64,000 bases of DNA from Pontibacter lucknowensis (GTDB lineage Bacteria; Bacteroidota; Bacteroidia; Cytophagales; Hymenobacteraceae): NCBI RefSeq assembly GCF_900156415.1, contig NZ_FTNM01000007.1, positions 62,001 through 126,000 of the forward strand. Reading direction: 5' to 3'. The notes under the pieces were generated by a model. The model saw only the letters and a list, made by a program, of their open reading frames with translations, searched no databases and was not told the DNA's origin. Each line of letters starts with the position of its first letter. The first letter of the stretch is position 1. Below, one piece after another: positions 39,892 through 51,531 of the stretch. The position numbers were made by a program, and so were the translations under genes.

Positions 39892-42294
39892 ATGAAGAGA
39901 TTAATTAAGAAAGTAGCCGTGCTGGGTTCCGGTGTCATGGGCTCCCGCATTGCCTGCCACTTTGCCAACATCGGTGTGCAGGTACTGTTGCTCGACATCG
40001 TGCCACGCGAACTCACCCCCGACGAAGAGAAAAAAGGGCTGACGCTGGAAAGCAAGCATGTCCGCAACCGCATTGTGAACAGTGCGCTGGAAGCAGCCAT
40101 TAAGTCTAATCCTTCGCCCCTTTACCGTAAGTCCGATGCCCGCCTGATCCAGACGGGTAACTTCGAAGACAACATGAAGGATATCGCCAGCGCCGACTGG
40201 ACCATTGAGGTGGTGGTGGAGAACCTGAAGATCAAGCATTCAGTGTTTGAGCAGGTGGAGAAGCACCGCAAGCCGGGCACGCTGATCACCTCCAACACCT
40301 CGGGTATCCCGATTCACATGATGCTGGAGGGCCGATCTGACGATTTCAAAAAGCACTTCTGCGGTACGCACTTCTTCAACCCGCCGCGCTATCTCAAGCT
40401 ATTAGAAATTATACCTACGCCAGAAACCGATCAGGATGTTGTAGACTTCCTCATGCACTACGGCGACCTATACCTTGGCAAGACGACTGTACTGGCCAAA
40501 GATACACCGGCTTTCATTGCGAACCGTGTGGGTATCTACGCCATCATGCAAGGCCTGCAGGTGATGAACAAACTCGGACTGAACGTGGACGAGGTGGATC
40601 GTATCACAGGTCCGATCATTGGTCGTCCGAAGTCTGCTACGTTCCGCACGCTGGATGTGGTAGGTCTGGATACTCTGGCTAATGTAGCCAACGGTCTGTA
40701 CCAGACAGGAGAGAAGGACGAGTCGCGTGAGTTATTCAAGCTACCGGACTACCTGCAGAAAATGGTGGAGAACAAGTGGCTGGGCGACAAAACCGGTCAG
40801 GGTTTCTACAAGAAAACGAAAGATGCCAAAGGCAAAACCGAGATCCTGACCCTCGACCTGAACACGCTGGAGTATGGACCAAAGCAGCGTCCGAAGTTCC
40901 AGAGCCTCGAAATTCTCAAGCCGATTGAGGATCTGAAGAAGCGCGTGAAGACCTTCTCCAAGCAAAACGATAAGGCAGCCCAGTTCTTCAACGAGTCACT
41001 CTATGGCTTGTTCCAGTACGTGAGCAACCGCATACCTGAGATCTCCGACGAACTCTACCGCATCGACGACGCCATGCGTGCCGGCTTTGGCTGGGAGCTG
41101 GGTCCGTTCGAGTACTGGGACGTGATCGGCGCCCGCGAAGGTGTGCAGCGCATGATCGAAGCCGGTTACCAGCCTGCGGCCTGGGTAGAGGAGATGCTCA
41201 ACCAAGGCAAAGAGTCCTTCTACATAGTGGAGAGCGGCAACCGCCGTTATTACGACATCCAGAGCAAAGAATACAAGGCAATACCAGGTGTTGAGAACTT
41301 CATCATCCTTGACAACCTGCGCAGCAACAAAGTAGTGTGGAAAAACACTGGCGCTACACTGATCGACCTCGGTGACGGCATCCTGAACGTGGAATTCCAC
41401 ACGAAGATGAACACCATCGGTGGTGATGTGGTGCAGGGGCTGAACAAGGGTATAGAGATTGCCGAGAAAGAGTTCAGAGGCATGGTAGTGGGCAGTCAGG
41501 CAGCGAACTTCTCAGCTGGTGCCAATGTGGGCTTAATTTACATGTATGCCCTAGAGCAGGAGTATGACGAGATCAACTTTATGATCAAGCAGTTTCAGGA
41601 TACGATGATGCGCATGCGCTATTCAGCTATACCTGTGGTAGGCGCGCCGCACGGTCTCACACTGGGCGGTGGCTGCGAGCTGAACTTGCATTGCGACCAT
41701 GTGCAGGCAGCTGCCGAAACCTACATGGGTCTGGTGGAGTTTGGCGTAGGCCTTATACCTGGCGGTGGCGGTACTAAAGAGATGACGCTCCGCGCAGCCG
41801 AGATGTACGAAGAGGGTGATATTGAGTACAACACGCTCAAGAACATCTACCTCAACATAGGTATGGCCAAGGTGTCTACTTCTGCCAAAGAGGCCTTCGA
41901 CTTAGGCTTTATGCGTCAGGGCGACGCGATAACTCTCAACATCAACCGTCAGATTGCTGATGCCAAAGCGCAGGCGATTCGTCTGGCCGAGGCGGGGTAT
42001 ACGCAGCCAGCCAAGAAAACCAAGATAAAAGTACAGGGCAAAGGTGCTTTAGGCATGTTCCTGACGGGAGCCAGTGCGATGGTATCAGGTGGCTACATTT
42101 CAGAGCACGACCAGAAGATATCGCACAAACTCGCTTACGTGATGTGCGGCGGCGACCTCTCTGCTCCGACAGATGTGAGCGAGCAATACCTGCTGGATCT
42201 GGAGCGTGAAGCCTTCCTGTCACTGACCGGTGAACGCAAGACACTAGAGCGTATCCAGAGCATCCTGACCACAGGCAAGCCACTGAGAAATTAA
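39892..42294 (+). CDS. fadN: 3-hydroxyacyl-CoA dehydrogenase / enoyl-CoA hydratase (FadN type)
   Basis: An 800-residue bifunctional beta-oxidation enzyme. The dehydrogenase comes first (NAD loop KKVAVLGSGVMGSRIACHF at about 5-23; GTHFFNPPRYLKLLEIIP with the catalytic His) and the crotonase-like hydratase comes last (about 480-680, GLTLGGGCELNLHCD and GVGLIPGGGGTKEM). This order is the reverse of E. coli FadB and equals Bacillus FadN. It is followed by fadA and fadE, the same gene order as the Bacillus fadNAE operon. Confidence 0.94.
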   Translation: MKRLIKKVAVLGSGVMGSRIACHFANIGVQVLLLDIVPRELTPDEEKKGLTLESKHVRNRIVNSALEAAIKSNPSPLYRKSDARLIQTGNFEDNMKDIASADWTIEVVVENLKIKHSVFEQVEKHRKPGTLITSNTSGIPIHMMLEGRSDDFKKHFCGTHFFNPPRYLKLLEIIPTPETDQDVVDFLMHYGDLYLGKTTVLAKDTPAFIANRVGIYAIMQGLQVMNKLGLNVDEVDRITGPIIGRPKSATFRTLDVVGLDTLANVANGLYQTGEKDESRELFKLPDYLQKMVENKWLGDKTGQGFYKKTKDAKGKTEILTLDLNTLEYGPKQRPKFQSLEILKPIEDLKKRVKTFSKQNDKAAQFFNESLYGLFQYVSNRIPEISDELYRIDDAMRAGFGWELGPFEYWDVIGAREGVQRMIEAGYQPAAWVEEMLNQGKESFYIVESGNRRYYDIQSKEYKAIPGVENFIILDNLRSNKVVWKNTGATLIDLGDGILNVEFHTKMNTIGGDVVQGLNKGIEIAEKEFRGMVVGSQAANFSAGANVGLIYMYALEQEYDEINFMIKQFQDTMMRMRYSAIPVVGAPHGLTLGGGCELNLHCDHVQAAAETYMGLVEFGVGLIPGGGGTKEMTLRAAEMYEEGDIEYNTLKNIYLNIGMAKVSTSAKEAFDLGFMRQGDAITLNINRQIADAKAQAIRLAEAGYTQPAKKTKIKVQGKGALGMFLTGASAMVSGGYISEHDQKISHKLAYVMCGGDLSAPTDVSEQYLLDLEREAFLSLTGERKTLERIQSILTTGKPLRN

Positions 42295-42387
42295 TGTCTA
42301 ATGGGTAATGAAAGATGATTGTGCTGTTCAGAGAGCATACCTGAGAGAGCAACAATCAACCATTTAACAATTTAGCAATTAAAAAAT

Positions 42388-43566
42388 ATGAACAACGCAT
42401 ATATCGTAGCCGGATTTCGTAGCGCAGTAGGCAAAGCCGGGCGCGGAGGCTTCCGGTTCACCAGACCTGATGACCTGGCCGCTGACGTCATCAAACATCT
42501 TATGGCTTCTGTACCTGCCCTCGACCCGGAGCGTGTAGACGACCTGATTGTGGGTAATGCCGTGCCGGAAGCGGAGCAGGGCCTGCAGATTGGCCGTATG
42601 ATTGCGCTTTTGTCTCTGCCGATGTCCGTATCCGGTATGACGGTAAACCGCTACTGCGGCTCCGGTGTGGAAACCATCGCGATGGCCTGCAACCGTATAC
42701 AGGCAGGTATGGCCGACTGTATTGTCGCAGGCGGCACCGAATCTATGTCGATGGTGCCGACAGTGGGCTGGAAGACAGTGCCGAACTACAACATCGCCAA
42801 GAAGAATCCGGACTGGTACCTGAGCATGGGCCTCACGGCTGAAGCAGTGGCCAAAGACTACAATGTTTCACGTGAAGACCAGGACGAGTTTGCCTACAAC
42901 TCACACCAGAAGGCGATCAACGCCATCAAGAATGGCTATTTTAAAGAGCAGATCGTGCCTATTACAGTGGAGGAAACCTACATCGACGAGAACGGCAAGA
43001 AGAAGACCCGCACTTATGTCGTAGATACTGATGAAGGTCCACGTGCCGACACTTCCCTTGAAGCCCTGGCCAGACTGAAGCCTGTGTTTGCGGCCGGCGG
43101 TTCTGTAACAGCCGGTAACTCTTCCCAGACCTCTGACGGTGCTGCCTTTGTGATCGTGATGAGCGAGCGCATGGTGAAAGAACTCAACCTGGAGCCGATC
43201 GCCCGTATGGTGAGCTACGGCACCGGTGGTGTGGATCCGCGCATCATGGGTATGGGCCCGATTGCAGCCGTTCCGAAAGCACTGAAAATGGCTGGTTTGA
43301 CACTTAATGACATCGACCTGATCGAGATGAACGAAGCCTTTGCTGCCCAGTCCATTGCCGTAATGCGCCACCTCGACTTCGACCCAGCCAAGCTGAACGT
43401 AAGCGGCGGGGCGATCGCACTTGGTCACCCGCTGGGTTGCTCCGGAGCTAAGCTTAGCATACAGCAATTCCATGAGCTGCGCCGCCTTGGCAAGAAGTAC
43501 GGCATGGTTACCGCCTGTGTAGGCGGTGGACAGGGCGTAGCCGGCATCTATGAGCTTTTGAAGTAA
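42388..43566 (+). CDS. fadA: Acetyl-CoA acyltransferase (3-ketoacyl-CoA thiolase)
   Basis: Thiolytic cleavage of 3-ketoacyl-CoA, the last beta-oxidation step. The 392-residue enzyme has the acyl-accepting Cys90 (NRYCGSG), GGAIALGHPLGCSGAK with the catalytic His, and TACVGGGQGVAGIYE with the second cysteine. It lies 93 bases after fadN; the spacer contains low-complexity AACAATTTAGCAATT-like sequence and no terminator. Confidence 0.96.
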   Translation: MNNAYIVAGFRSAVGKAGRGGFRFTRPDDLAADVIKHLMASVPALDPERVDDLIVGNAVPEAEQGLQIGRMIALLSLPMSVSGMTVNRYCGSGVETIAMACNRIQAGMADCIVAGGTESMSMVPTVGWKTVPNYNIAKKNPDWYLSMGLTAEAVAKDYNVSREDQDEFAYNSHQKAINAIKNGYFKEQIVPITVEETYIDENGKKKTRTYVVDTDEGPRADTSLEALARLKPVFAAGGSVTAGNSSQTSDGAAFVIVMSERMVKELNLEPIARMVSYGTGGVDPRIMGMGPIAAVPKALKMAGLTLNDIDLIEMNEAFAAQSIAVMRHLDFDPAKLNVSGGAIALGHPLGCSGAKLSIQQFHELRRLGKKYGMVTACVGGGQGVAGIYELLK

Positions 43567-43605
43567 AAACTAACCTGAACCTAAAAACACTAATCATATT
43601 CTGCC

Positions 43606-45402
43606 ATGGAAAATGTAACAGATAAAAATAAAGCCACTGTTCGCGGTGGTGAATTCCTGATAAAAGAAACTGACGCGCAGGACGTATTTATACCTGCCGA
43701 GTTTAGCGAGGAGCAGCGCATGATGGCGCAGACCTGTCTGGACTTTGTGCGCGAAGAAGTGAACCCGCTTCTTGACCGCCTCGACAACCATGAGGAAGGC
43801 CTGATGGAAGGTCTGATGAAAAAGGCTGGCGAGCTTGGCTTGTTCGCAGTGTCGATGCCAGAGCAATACGGTGGCCTGAACATGGACTTCAACACATCAC
43901 TTCTGGTAACAGAGTCAGTAGGTGGTGGACATTCCTTCCCGGTGGCTTTTGCGGCTCACACAGGTATAGGTATGCTGCCGATCCTGTACTTCGGTACGGA
44001 CGAGCAGAAAGAGAAGTACCTGCCAAAGCTGACTTCCGGCGAATGGGCGGCAGCTTACTGCCTCACCGAACCAGGCTCTGGTTCTGATGCCCTGGCTGCT
44101 AAAACCAAAGCGGTGCTAAACGAAGCTGGTACACACTACATCCTGAACGGCCAGAAAATGTGGATCACGAACGCCGGTTTTGCCGATGTGTTCATCGTGT
44201 TTGCGCAGGTGGACGGCGACAAGTTCACAGGCTTTATTGTGGAGAAAGGTTATCCGGGCCTGAGCCTTGGCAACGAGGAGCACAAAATGGGTATCAAGGG
44301 TTCTTCTACGCGCCAGGTGTTCCTGTCGGATTGCGAAGTGCCGAAAGAAAACGTGCTCGGCGACATCGGCAAAGGTCACCTGATCGCTTTCAACATCCTG
44401 AACATCGGCCGTATCAAGCTTTGCGCGGCGACGCTGGGCGCCTCTAAGAAGGTGGTAGACCTGTCGGTGAAGTATGCCAACGAGCGACAGCAGTTCAAAC
44501 TGCCAATCTCTAAATTCGGTGCCATCCGTCACAAACTGGCAGAGCAAGCCATTCGCATCTATGCAGTTGAGTCAGCGCTATACCGTTGCGGTATGGACAT
44601 TTATCGCAAGGAGCAGGAGCTACTGGCTTCTGGAAAAGGCGAGAACGAAGCTATGCTGGGTGCTGCCCGCGAGTTTGCTGTAGAGTGCGCCATGCTGAAA
44701 GTGGAAGGCTCTGAAGTGCTCGACTATGTGGTGGACGAAGGGGTGCAGATCTACGGTGGCTACGGCTTCTCAGCTGACTACCCGATGGACCGCGCTTACC
44801 GCGACTCCCGTATCAACCGCATCTTCGAAGGTACCAACGAGATCAACCGCATGCTTACGGTGGACATGATCCTCAAAAAAGCCATGAACGGTGAGCTGGA
44901 CCTGATGGGCCCTGCACAAAATGTGCAAAACGAACTGATGGCTATACCTGATTTCGGTGCTGAAGAGGAAGGCATGTTCGCAGCAGAGCACAAGGCGATC
45001 CGCAACCTGAAGAAAGCGATCCTGATGGTAGCCGGCACTGCGGTACAGAAATACATGAACTCACTGGCCAAAGAGCAGGAGATCCTGATGAACATCGCTG
45101 ACATGGCTATCAAGACGTACGTGGCGGAATCAACGCTGCTGCGTGTAGAGAAACTGGTAGGCATGAAAGGCGAGGATGCCGTGGCGAACCAGATCGACAT
45201 TGTACGCGTGACCGTGAACGATGCCGTGGACACCGCCTTCCTGGCTGGTAAAGATGCGATCGCCTCTATGGCGGAAGGTGACGAGCAACGTCTATTGTTC
45301 ATGGGCCTGAAGCGCTTCACCAAGAAAGACCTCTACAATACCAAGGAGGCACGTCGTCGCATAGCAGCCGCTATGATTGACGCAAACGAATTCGTGTACT
45401 AG
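43606..45402 (+). CDS. fadE: Acyl-CoA dehydrogenase (FadE type, with C-terminal extension)
   Basis: First step of beta-oxidation: FAD-dependent desaturation of acyl-CoA. The 598-residue protein has the standard three-domain dehydrogenase (about 30-420: YCLTEPGSGSDALAAKT, GQKMWITNAGFADVFIV, YGGYGFSADYPMDRAYRD, RIFEGTNEINRML) plus a C-terminal helical extension (about 430-598) found in the Bacillus FadE and VLCAD-like class. It is 39 bases after fadA and is the last gene of the fad operon. Confidence 0.95.
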   Translation: MENVTDKNKATVRGGEFLIKETDAQDVFIPAEFSEEQRMMAQTCLDFVREEVNPLLDRLDNHEEGLMEGLMKKAGELGLFAVSMPEQYGGLNMDFNTSLLVTESVGGGHSFPVAFAAHTGIGMLPILYFGTDEQKEKYLPKLTSGEWAAAYCLTEPGSGSDALAAKTKAVLNEAGTHYILNGQKMWITNAGFADVFIVFAQVDGDKFTGFIVEKGYPGLSLGNEEHKMGIKGSSTRQVFLSDCEVPKENVLGDIGKGHLIAFNILNIGRIKLCAATLGASKKVVDLSVKYANERQQFKLPISKFGAIRHKLAEQAIRIYAVESALYRCGMDIYRKEQELLASGKGENEAMLGAAREFAVECAMLKVEGSEVLDYVVDEGVQIYGGYGFSADYPMDRAYRDSRINRIFEGTNEINRMLTVDMILKKAMNGELDLMGPAQNVQNELMAIPDFGAEEEGMFAAEHKAIRNLKKAILMVAGTAVQKYMNSLAKEQEILMNIADMAIKTYVAESTLLRVEKLVGMKGEDAVANQIDIVRVTVNDAVDTAFLAGKDAIASMAEGDEQRLLFMGLKRFTKKDLYNTKEARRRIAAAMIDANEFVY

Positions 45403-47863: not shown

Positions 47864-48265
47864 TTAGAGTTGTATCTCCTCTGCCAGTACACGCACCGGC
47901 TGCTTGTGCTCGTCTATGGCTACAAAGGTAAAGCTGCCATGTACCGCCTTCAGCCGAACATCAGAGTACATTTCTTCAATATAGATTTCCACCTGCACCT
48001 TGAGGCTGGTATTGCCTACACTACTCACCTGTCCGATTAACTCTACAATGGTGCCTGCAGGTATAGGCTGCGTGAAATCTATCCGGTCAGACGATACCGT
48101 TACCACCCGTTTGCGGCAGAAGCGGGTAGCCGTGATAAAAGCCACCTCGTCCATTAGTTGCATGGCAGTGCCGCCAAATAGGGTGTCATAATGATTGGTC
48201 GTGTTCGGGAAAACTGCTTTGAAGATGCGCGTTTCTGACTCGGTAATACGTTGCTGTAAATTCAT
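47864..48265 (-). CDS. Acyl-CoA thioesterase (YciA-like hotdog)
   Basis: A 133-residue single hotdog domain: FPNTTNHYDTLFGGTAMQLMDEVAFITAT with the conserved Asn and Asp of the YciA/acyl-CoA thioesterase family, and VTVSSDRIDFTQPIPAG. It hydrolyses acyl-CoA to free acid and CoA. An in-frame TAA lies just upstream of ATG 48265, fixing the start. The upstream 240 bases contain no other long frame and lead into a cobalamin riboswitch on the same strand, an unusual association. Confidence 0.9.
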   Translation of the reverse strand: MNLQQRITESETRIFKAVFPNTTNHYDTLFGGTAMQLMDEVAFITATRFCRKRVVTVSSDRIDFTQPIPAGTIVELIGQVSSVGNTSLKVQVEIYIEEMYSDVRLKAVHGSFTFVAIDEHKQPVRVLAEEIQL

Positions 48266-48435
48266 AATTTATAGGTTTAAGTGTGCTGGAGTGTAGGTGC
48301 GCCGCGCCACACAGCTGTGGCTGTAGGTTCAATTGAAGGTAAAAGCAGGAGCTGAATAGTGGCATACACAGATAATTTGGGCATGCCGGTGCAGAAAAAA
48401 TGTGGAGAGGGAGTAGGTGCAAATGCGCTGCAAAG

Positions 48436-48495
48436 TCAACTTGAGCTGCAGGAGGTGACTACTACGCTAACCACAGGCTTTAGGCGCGAAAGCAT
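48436..48495 (-). CDS. Short ORF (19 codons) directly behind the cobalamin riboswitch
   Basis: ATG 48495, 17 bases after the B12 box, opens a frame of 19 codons (MLSRLKPVVSVVVTSCSSS) ended by TGA at 48436. The N-terminus has a positively charged then hydrophobic pattern like a signal peptide cut short. It may be the decayed start of a lost outer-membrane receptor, a leader peptide, or chance. No homology can be claimed. Confidence 0.3.
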   Translation of the reverse strand: MLSRLKPVVSVVVTSCSSS

Positions 48496-48504
48496 GCGTG
48501 GAAT

Positions 48505-48650
48505 ATTGTTGGGGCAAGTCTCCTGGCTTGTAACATTGTTGCCGTCCTTCTCATCCGGGCTCCGGACAATGGACATTTGTGTGGCAGCAATCAATTGTTA
48601 CTTACAGTTGCGCGTCAGCCCGTGATTTGCACACGGTTCCTTTTTAAACC
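48505..48650 (-). ncRNA. Cobalamin (vitamin B12) riboswitch
   Basis: Read on the minus strand, the region shows the ordered conserved blocks of the cobalamin aptamer: AAAAAGGAACC, P3 hairpin CCGTG-TGCAAAT-CACGG (48636-48620), GCGCAACTGTAAG (48613-48601), TGCCACAC (48586-48579), GAGAAGGACGGC, and the B12 box AAGCCAGGAGACTTGCCC (48529-48512). The P5 pairing GTAACA with TGTTAC closes the core. It binds adenosylcobalamin-type ligands and normally represses B12 uptake or synthesis genes. Here the next gene on the strand is a thioesterase 240 bases away; recG lies upstream in the same direction. Confidence 0.9.
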
Positions 48651-48700
48651 TGAGCTATTCCTAGCTGAGGTACCTCCAAACGCTGTAAAGATAGAAATTT

Positions 48701-50797
48701 TTAACTGATGCGGCTCCAGTTGACAGTATTTACGCTCAGCGACTTAATATGCCGCATGATATTCTGGTTCTGTGGCTGCTCCAACTGAGGGTCTTCGTTG
48801 AGCACACGTTGCGCAGCTGCACGTGACTCTTGTAGGATAGGAGCGTCTTTGGCCAAATCGGCAATGAGCAGATCCAGCACACCGCTTTGCTGCGTACCCA
48901 TCAGGTCGCCTGGTCCGCGCAGCTTCAGGTCAATGTCAGCAATCTCAAAGCCATTGTTGGTGCGCACCATCGTCTCCAGCCTGGTCTTGCTGTCTTTGCT
49001 CAGCTTATACCCTGTCATCAGGATGCAGTAGCTCTGCTCCGCACCCCGGCCCACCCTGCCACGCAACTGGTGCAGCTGCGACAAACCGAAGCGCTCCGCA
49101 CTCTCGATGATCATCACAGAGGCGTTGGGCACGTTCACGCCTACTTCAATTACAGTCGTAGCTACCATGATCTGTGTTTCGTTACGCACAAAGCGCTGCA
49201 TTTCGTAGTCTTTATCCTGCGCCTTGAGTTTGCCATGCACCATGCTCACCTGGTACTCTGGGAAAGCACGGCGGATACTTTCATAGCCATCCATCAGGTC
49301 CTTGTAATCCATCCCTTCCGACTCCTCAATGAGTGGGTACACGATGTATACCTGGCGGCCGAGCTTAATCTGATCGCGCACAAACTGGAACACCTTCAGG
49401 CGGTGTGAGTCAAAGCGGTGCACGGTCACGATCTCTTTACGGCCGGCCGGCATTTCGTCGATTACCGACACATCCAGGTCGCCGTAAAGTGTCATAGCCA
49501 GAGTACGGGGTATAGGAGTGGCGGTCATCACGAGTACATGCGGGATAATGCGCGGGTTTTTGCGCCACAGCCTGGAACGCTGCTCTACCCCAAAGCGGTG
49601 CTGCTCATCCACAATGCAAAGTCCCAGGTTATGGAATTGCACCACGTCTTCCAGCAAAGCATGCGTTCCCACGATCATTTTCATCTCACCGGAGCGCAGC
49701 TGCTCGTGCAGTACCTTGCGGTCTTTGGTTTTAGTGGAGCCGGTGAGTTTGCCGATGTTTATACCTAGTCGGTCAGCAAAAGCTTTGAGACCGGTATAAT
49801 GTTGGTCTGCCAAAATCTCGGTAGGCGCCATCAGCACCGATTGCGCTCCGTTATCGGCCGCGATCAGCATTGTGATGAAGGCTACGATGGTCTTGCCTGA
49901 GCCCACATCTCCCTGCAACAAGCGGTTCATCTGCTTGCCGGCTGTCAGGTCTTTGTGTATTTCCTTAATCACCCGCTTCTGCGCATTGGTCAGGTCGAAG
50001 GTCATGTGGTTCTTGTAGAACTCCGTTACCGTCGGAACATGCCTGAACACCTGACCGGCCAGGTCGGCGCGGCGCACTGTTTTCTGGCGCAGCAGGCGCA
50101 GTTGTATGTAAAAGAGCTCTTCAAACTTGAGTCGGAACTTAGCGGCATTGTACTTCTCCACCGACTGCGGAAAGTGGATATTGATCAACGCATCCCGTTT
50201 GCTCATCAGGCGGTAATGGTCAATCAGCTCCGGCGAAAGCGTCTCGTTAATATTTGGCACTGCCACCTTCAGCAGCATTTCCATGTAACGGGCTATGACC
50301 TTGCTCTCAACACGGAATGCCTTCAGCTTTTCAGTGGTATGGTATACAGGTTGCAGAAAAGAGGTCGTCTGTTTCTCTTCTCCCAATTCCTCCAGCTCTG
50401 GATGTGCCATGCTCCACTTGCCATTAAATGAAGTAGGCTTGCCAAACACGATGTAGTCGGTGTGGTTTTTTAGCGTCTTTTGCATCCACTTCACCCCTTT
50501 AAACCAAACCAGCTCCATCTCATTGCCGTCTTCGTCCACCAGTGTGGCAGCCAAGCGTTGTTTCCGACCTTCGCCGAGCACTTCCTTACCCCGCACACGC
50601 CCGCGTACCTGCACATAAGGCATGCTTTCGTCCAAGTCTGTTATTTTGTAGAATTGGGTGCGGTCGAGGTAGCGGAAAGGATAGTGTTGAATGAGGTCAC
50701 CGTAGGTATAAATATTGAGCTCCTTCTGCAGCAGCTCAGCCCGCTGCGGCCCCACGCCTTTCAAAAATTCGATCTTGGTATGGAAGAAGTTGTTCAA
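48701..50797 (-). CDS. recG: ATP-dependent DNA helicase RecG
   Basis: Remodels stalled replication forks and Holliday junctions. The 698-residue protein has the N-terminal wedge (OB) domain (about 1-240) and the two RecA-like helicase domains: GDVGSGKT (motif I), DEQHRFG (motif II), MTATPIPRTLAM (motif III), and ERFGLSQLHQLRGRVGRG (motif VI). Length is normal. A TATCTTTG box (50834-50827) lies about 30 bases upstream, right beside the terminator that follows gldD. Confidence 0.97.
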   Translation of the reverse strand: MNNFFHTKIEFLKGVGPQRAELLQKELNIYTYGDLIQHYPFRYLDRTQFYKITDLDESMPYVQVRGRVRGKEVLGEGRKQRLAATLVDEDGNEMELVWFKGVKWMQKTLKNHTDYIVFGKPTSFNGKWSMAHPELEELGEEKQTTSFLQPVYHTTEKLKAFRVESKVIARYMEMLLKVAVPNINETLSPELIDHYRLMSKRDALINIHFPQSVEKYNAAKFRLKFEELFYIQLRLLRQKTVRRADLAGQVFRHVPTVTEFYKNHMTFDLTNAQKRVIKEIHKDLTAGKQMNRLLQGDVGSGKTIVAFITMLIAADNGAQSVLMAPTEILADQHYTGLKAFADRLGINIGKLTGSTKTKDRKVLHEQLRSGEMKMIVGTHALLEDVVQFHNLGLCIVDEQHRFGVEQRSRLWRKNPRIIPHVLVMTATPIPRTLAMTLYGDLDVSVIDEMPAGRKEIVTVHRFDSHRLKVFQFVRDQIKLGRQVYIVYPLIEESEGMDYKDLMDGYESIRRAFPEYQVSMVHGKLKAQDKDYEMQRFVRNETQIMVATTVIEVGVNVPNASVMIIESAERFGLSQLHQLRGRVGRGAEQSYCILMTGYKLSKDSKTRLETMVRTNNGFEIADIDLKLRGPGDLMGTQQSGVLDLLIADLAKDAPILQESRAAAQRVLNEDPQLEQPQNQNIMRHIKSLSVNTVNWSRIS

Positions 50798-50910: not shown

Positions 50911-51531
50911 CTACTTCCTATCCTTAAACTCCAGTGTGTTCAGCATGTGTACAATATCCTTCTTCACATACTCAATAACCGGAGCCAGTGAGTCGTTTTG
51001 AGTGGCAGTTCTGAAGTAGAGCGCTCCCCGGAAGAAGTGATTGGTTGTGTCAGTTACATAGAACTGAAACTGGCTTGGGATCTCGCCTTCCAGCTCAAAC
51101 ACAGAGGCAATATCTCCCTGCGGTGTTCTGATCTCTGTTTCTTCAATAGAATACGCCTTTATCTGGTGTTTGCCGGTCAGTTTGCGCGCATCCTCGATCA
51201 GGTTATTCAACATCTTCGGATCATTGTTGATCGCCTTATAAGTCAATTGCACGTTCGCTCCCAGGCTCGGGTAAATGACATTGATCCAGTGTGGCTGCGC
51301 AATCATCGAAGAATCAGGGCGTATCTTGGCGTGCTTCGAATACTCGAAGGTATACGGATGCTTGTCCTGCAGCTGCTGGTAAGCAGCTTCTGGCAAGTCA
51401 ATGCGGTTGTATCCTTTTGGTTTTGGGGTGTACTCGGCGTTACAGCCAATGATGGACAGGGCCATACCTGCCCATAGGGCCATTTGCAGTTTAGCTGACT
51501 TTATGATAGTGCTCTTTTTTGCTTGCGACAT
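50911..51531 (-). CDS. gldD: Gliding motility lipoprotein GldD
   Basis: A 206-residue lipoprotein with a Lys-rich N-terminus, hydrophobic stretch and lipobox IIGC (Cys30). The mature part opens with the GldD signature [18 protein letters not shown] and ends in a domain with [19 protein letters not shown]. GldD is required for gliding and linked to type IX secretion in Flavobacterium. It follows gldE, the same pair as there. The start at 51531 overlaps the gldE stop by 41 bases; ATG 51483 would avoid overlap but remove the charged n-region of the signal. Confidence 0.92.

Follow-up and report, generated by a model that had tools for sequence, protein, structure and literature searches.

The cobalamin riboswitch on the minus strand of the 64-kb window (the whole stretch of DNA analyzed here) precedes a gene for a hotdog (4HBT) acyl-CoA thioesterase, hereafter ACOT, and sequence comparisons indicate that this gene is conserved as a target of B12 riboswitches and accompanies B12-independent isozymes. 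The assignment follows from recurrence of the linkage in 13 of the 21 ACOT-bearing species of the genus, in 59 of the 80 closest ACOT loci, and in 13 of 27 loci from an even sample of the phylum vs 0 of 22 paralogue controls. On this evidence, expression of ACOT is very probably under B12 control. The coordinates of the features are given in Table 1.

Table 1 Features of the riboswitch-ACOT unit and its upstream neighbor, in window coordinates.
Feature	Position	Strand	Basis
ACOT, regulated gene, 133-aa hotdog (4HBT) acyl-CoA thioesterase	47864..48265	(-)	PF03061; riboswitch-linked orthologues
Spacer/untranslated leader, little conserved	48266..48476	(-)	37% mean identity, 13 species
P13-type hairpin GCUUU-CGCGCCU-AAAGC	48477..48493	(-)	Same hairpin behind B12 riboswitches phylum-wide, with compensatory stem changes
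L13 (CGCG) of the P13-type hairpin	48488-48485	(-)	
Cobalamin riboswitch aptamer RF00174, full length	48496..48692	(-)	cmscan; conservation in 13 species
B12 box AAGCCAGGAGACTTGCCC	48512..48529	(-)	Sequence; aligned to RF00174 consensus
Aptamer loop L5 (CGCG), putative partner of L13	48611..48614	(-)	Covariation
TATCTTT, candidate Bacteroidota -7 box (TAnnTTTG type) at the aptamer 5' end	48687..48693	(-)	Inferred
recG, upstream neighbor, outside the unit	48701..50797	(-)	ORF; genome G006 has the riboswitch-ACOT pair without recG

The RNA is an ordinary member of RF00174. A cmscan search of the whole window matched the Cobalamin model over positions 1–189 of 189 at 48692–48496 (-) with 85.9 bits (E = 8.7e-20), well above the gathering threshold of 31.5 bits, and this was the sole over-threshold Rfam match in the 64 kb. 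A first-pass annotation made from the sequence had placed a minus-strand cobalamin aptamer at 48505–48650, and the covariance model bears this out, with that interval forming the inner part of the match. The two motifs it had pointed to, the ACUGUAA core (GCGCAACTGTAA, near 48613–48602 on the minus strand) and the B12 box, are present and align with the model. The window RNA is thus like the RF00174 class (B12 element, AdoCbl class I) in its full-length match, its B12 box, and a P13-type hairpin with an L5–L13 partner. We consider the element a working adenosylcobalamin-type riboswitch, predicted to bind cobalamin and alter gene expression, and hold the explanation developed below, taken as a whole, to be moderately probable.

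An equivalent P13-type hairpin was found 3' of B12 riboswitches in most loci examined, and its stem varied in a compensatory manner across the phylum (GCUUU/GAAGC, AAACUUU/GAAGUUU, UACCUU/GGGGUA, and AAACUUU/AAGGUUU). The hairpin loop matched the aptamer loop that precedes CAACUG. Among the phylum loci this pair was CGCG/CGCG in 63 cases and CCCG/CGGG in 32, with no crosswise combinations; four CCCG copies carried a CGUG loop, and the remaining combinations were mostly spurious pattern matches. We take the covarying pair to be the L5–L13 kissing loop known for the B12 riboswitch class, and use the loop names of that class. The window locus has this feature in the CGCG/CGCG form, so the switch is intact rather than in decay.

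At least one RF00174 element was present in all 50 genomes of the genus searched, and 21 of these genomes contained a close ACOT orthologue. In the 13 species with the riboswitch directly upstream of ACOT, the gap was ~180–235 bases; in the window ACOT starts 230 bases past the aptamer and is the next gene on that strand. Comparison of the interval among these species gave mean pairwise identities of 95% for the aptamer core and 76% for the aptamer while the spacer drifted, and the DNA before the aptamer was 40% identical. recG lay upstream in 12 of the 13, and the pair was retained in G006 where recG is absent, so riboswitch and ACOT outlive a change of neighborhood. The remaining eight congeners had no riboswitch within ~4 kb upstream of ACOT, which indicates that some lineages lost the link or never gained it; support in the gene tree is too low to distinguish loss from absence of gain.

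The riboswitch unit may have its own promoter. TA[TC]CTTT was kept in 12 of the 13 species within poorly conserved flanking DNA, and TATCTTT resembles the Bacteroidota -7 consensus. On this basis, the transcript probably begins with the aptamer, just beyond recG. A scan for sigma-70 promoters and intrinsic terminators returned nothing above shuffled sequences, and thermodynamic folding of the leader gave no significant signal (z = -1.07). No conserved ORF occurred in the leader among the 13 species. A short leader ORF (MLSRLKPVVSVVVTSCSSS, ATG at 48495) was suspected to be the start of a lost lipoprotein or receptor, and was rejected: 3 of the 13 congeners lack the ATG and the reading frame is not preserved, so this sequence belongs to the P13 stem and the spacer.

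The neighbors named in the first-pass annotation, recG ending at 48701 and a 4HBT thioesterase at 48265–47864, were both recovered. Its label of the thioesterase as YciA-like holds at the superfamily level, where ACOT scored 67 bits against PF03061 (gathering 20.6), and fails at the equivalog level, where the score against the YciA model NF007970 was 56.9 bits with a cut-off of 162. ACOT shares the hotdog domain with YciA and other 4HBT thioesterases, and its PDB relatives are acyl-CoA hydrolases, but unlike YciA it belongs to a tightly conserved subfamily of its own, and the genome also encodes two distant paralogues (~30% identity). dN/dS values of 0.02–0.05 vs congeners indicate strong purifying selection. 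Elsewhere in the window are a beta-oxidation cluster (FadB-, FadA-, and FadE-like; 39892–45402, plus strand) ~2.5 kb from ACOT, and the gliding motility lipoprotein GldD (50911–51531).

The 80 closest ACOT loci, taken from named genomes, were scanned with Rfam, except for a few that were called by motif or from the match in their own genome. The loci in which a B12 riboswitch lay on the ACOT strand no more than 4 kb upstream (56 plus 3 called by motif) spanned many genera and several gene orders. The riboswitch directly preceded ACOT in Pontibacter and Chryseobacterium, and metE stood between them in Belliella, Pedobacter, Mucilaginibacter, Tenacibaculum, and others. Further orders were riboswitch-metE-fabH-ACOT, riboswitch-nrdB-nrdA-ACOT (L104), riboswitch-Cys_rich_CWC-ACOT, and riboswitch-TonB receptor (btuB-like)-ACOT, the last of which also included a surface-lipoprotein-like gene at one locus. 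Three Rfam B12 classes occurred upstream of ACOT: RF00174, RF01482, and RF01689. Like members of the B12 isozyme regulon, ACOT has an upstream, same-strand riboswitch across species. Eight genomes of another genus (L173–L180) had ACOT behind ribBA and no riboswitch.

Several of the intervening genes recurred. A FabH/KAS III homologue was present between metE and ACOT in riboswitch-led operons at L100, L102, L108, L130, and L136. Class I nrdB, mostly with nrdA, was riboswitch-led with ACOT last at L104, L171, L172, L184, L185, and G322 (L218 + L182). A small cysteine-rich CWC-domain protein (PF14375 in the L092 copy) was encoded between riboswitch and ACOT at L092, L116, L125, L137, and L144, and is possibly another B12-regulated gene. 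In L173–L180, the genes directly ahead of ACOT were FtsK, LolA-like, LptG-like, and RibBA, with names judged from the translations.

Because the closest loci are biased toward near relatives of the query, we also examined 296 genomes sampled evenly across the phylum. Thirty contained an ACOT above 140 bits, and 27 were scanned, the window's own genome being excluded. The 13 loci with a same-strand riboswitch within 4.5 kb upstream comprised 12 of RF00174 and one of RF01689, while none of the 22 distant thioesterase paralogues in the same genomes had one (hypergeometric p ~8e-5, nominal, kinship ignored). This value is optimistic since the genomes are akin, yet the variety of operons is hard to obtain from one event. 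A fourteenth case, riboswitch-metE-nrdB-nrdA-ACOT in G322, appeared once the upstream stretch was extended, with the riboswitch called by motif only.

These distributions overturn the description of the riboswitch as an orphan, given the upstream pairing with ACOT in 13 congeners and its recurrence across the phylum. They also bear on the loss of the controlled gene, one of two readings in the first-pass annotation; in that case btuB or metE, for example, would have been lost and ACOT would lie by chance behind a relic. Viewed alone, the window locus, which has a leader of 230 bases and lacks a classic B12 gene, would suit such a history, and since elsewhere ACOT closes metE and nrdAB operons, loss of a middle gene may have yielded the direct order. 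Set against this are the joint retention of aptamer, P13 hairpin, L5–L13 pair, and thioesterase in 13 species over a drifting spacer, the direct order in Chryseobacterium-type genomes, and the empty paralogue controls. The relic reading is already largely refuted, and we give it very little weight. It is similarly improbable that ACOT is a passenger gaining nothing from B12 control. Its frequent terminal position in metE, nrdAB, and btuB operons would be expected of a passenger, but ACOT occurs in four or more types of operon and has its own riboswitch where metE, nrdAB, and btuB are absent from the locus (Pontibacter and Chryseobacterium-type genomes).

The window genome (4.47 Mb, 19 contigs) contained two RF00174 copies, one preceding ACOT and the other preceding a TonB-dependent receptor, which is the ordinary B12-uptake arrangement. 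Its genus is very probably Pontibacter, judging from the named species that carry the orthologous locus. It encodes metH, class II ribonucleotide reductase, and methylmalonyl-CoA mutase; metE was not found in this genome. Only two metE genes occurred among the 50 genus genomes (G029:C210:14949-17714 and G037:C1:4133257-4135897), each directly behind a B12 riboswitch.

Off with B12 and on without it is the known direction for the RF00174 class. With plentiful B12, the aptamer would bind the cofactor, the L5–L13 kissing loop would close, and ACOT would be shut off; when B12 is scarce, the thioesterase would be made. Action on the start codon ~230 bases downstream could proceed by attenuation, Rho, or another route.

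The companions of ACOT are B12-free replacements for MetH and class II ribonucleotide reductase, together with a B12 receptor, which leaves methylmalonyl-CoA mutase as the remaining major B12 enzyme, and the one that handles acyl-CoA. No B12-free isozyme of this mutase is known. ACOT may serve as damage control for this third of the major B12 enzymes: without B12 the mutase would stall, methylmalonyl- and propionyl-CoA would tie up coenzyme A, and ACOT would hydrolyze these esters and free it. This role on methylmalonyl-/propionyl-CoA has a roughly even to slightly better chance of being correct. The FabH homologue in some Pedobacter/Mucilaginibacter-type operons fits acyl-CoA relief, because propionyl-CoA can serve as a primer for KAS III enzymes. 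The other reading in the first-pass annotation was that the thioesterase is B12-regulated, acyl-CoA pools and the mutase being linked; the regulation is supported, and the metabolic reason remains a good inference. The ACOT loci searched contained no neighboring mutase gene. The mutase was present in 291 of the 296 phylum genomes, and this near-universality makes its co-occurrence with ACOT uninformative. One genome, G051, contained ACOT and lacked the mutase, and its ACOT had no riboswitch.

ACOT could instead be a general medium-/long-chain acyl-CoA thioesterase that tunes fatty acid or beta-oxidation flux at low B12, which we regard as rather unlikely though the strongest of the alternatives. 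Its sequence gives only the hotdog superfamily, its structurally characterized relatives hydrolyze a broad range of acyl-CoAs, and the fabH-containing operons and the beta-oxidation genes in the window would suit such a function. However, each of the riboswitch partners metE, nrdAB, and btuB relates to a B12-dependent reaction, and among the common B12 enzymes of these genomes the mutase alone handles acyl-CoA. ACOT shares its riboswitch logic and, in several genera, operons with the B12-independent isozymes metE and nrdAB. Unlike those isozymes, ACOT cannot replace the chemistry of the mutase and would relieve the block instead. As a 4HBT family member it would not carry out the reaction of a B12-dependent enzyme without B12; 4HBT thioesterases are not known to synthesize methionine, reduce ribonucleotides, or perform the mutase rearrangement.

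The cobalamin regulon has been divided into four categories, B12 transport, B12 synthesis, cobalt transport, and isozymes (PMC3766115), and a thioesterase target fits none of them. A literature search that did not extend to the older B12-regulon papers and the regulon databases, where an earlier mention is possible, found no report connecting cobalamin riboswitches with thioesterase genes. In animals, methylmalonyl- and propionyl-CoA are known to accumulate when B12 is deficient. For Bacteroidota we tentatively propose, at slightly less than an even chance, that a methylmalonyl-/propionyl-CoA thioesterase dedicated to this task and controlled by a riboswitch stands in for the B12-independent mutase alternative that these bacteria lack, as metabolite repair that releases trapped coenzyme A under B12 starvation. 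The recurrence of ACOT with B12-free backup enzymes suggests that the thioesterase is the cell's coping route when a B12-dependent acyl-CoA enzyme stalls. A thioesterase in the B12 riboswitch set gives a functional lead for this enzyme subfamily, and would offer a testable answer to how mutase-reliant bacteria survive without B12.
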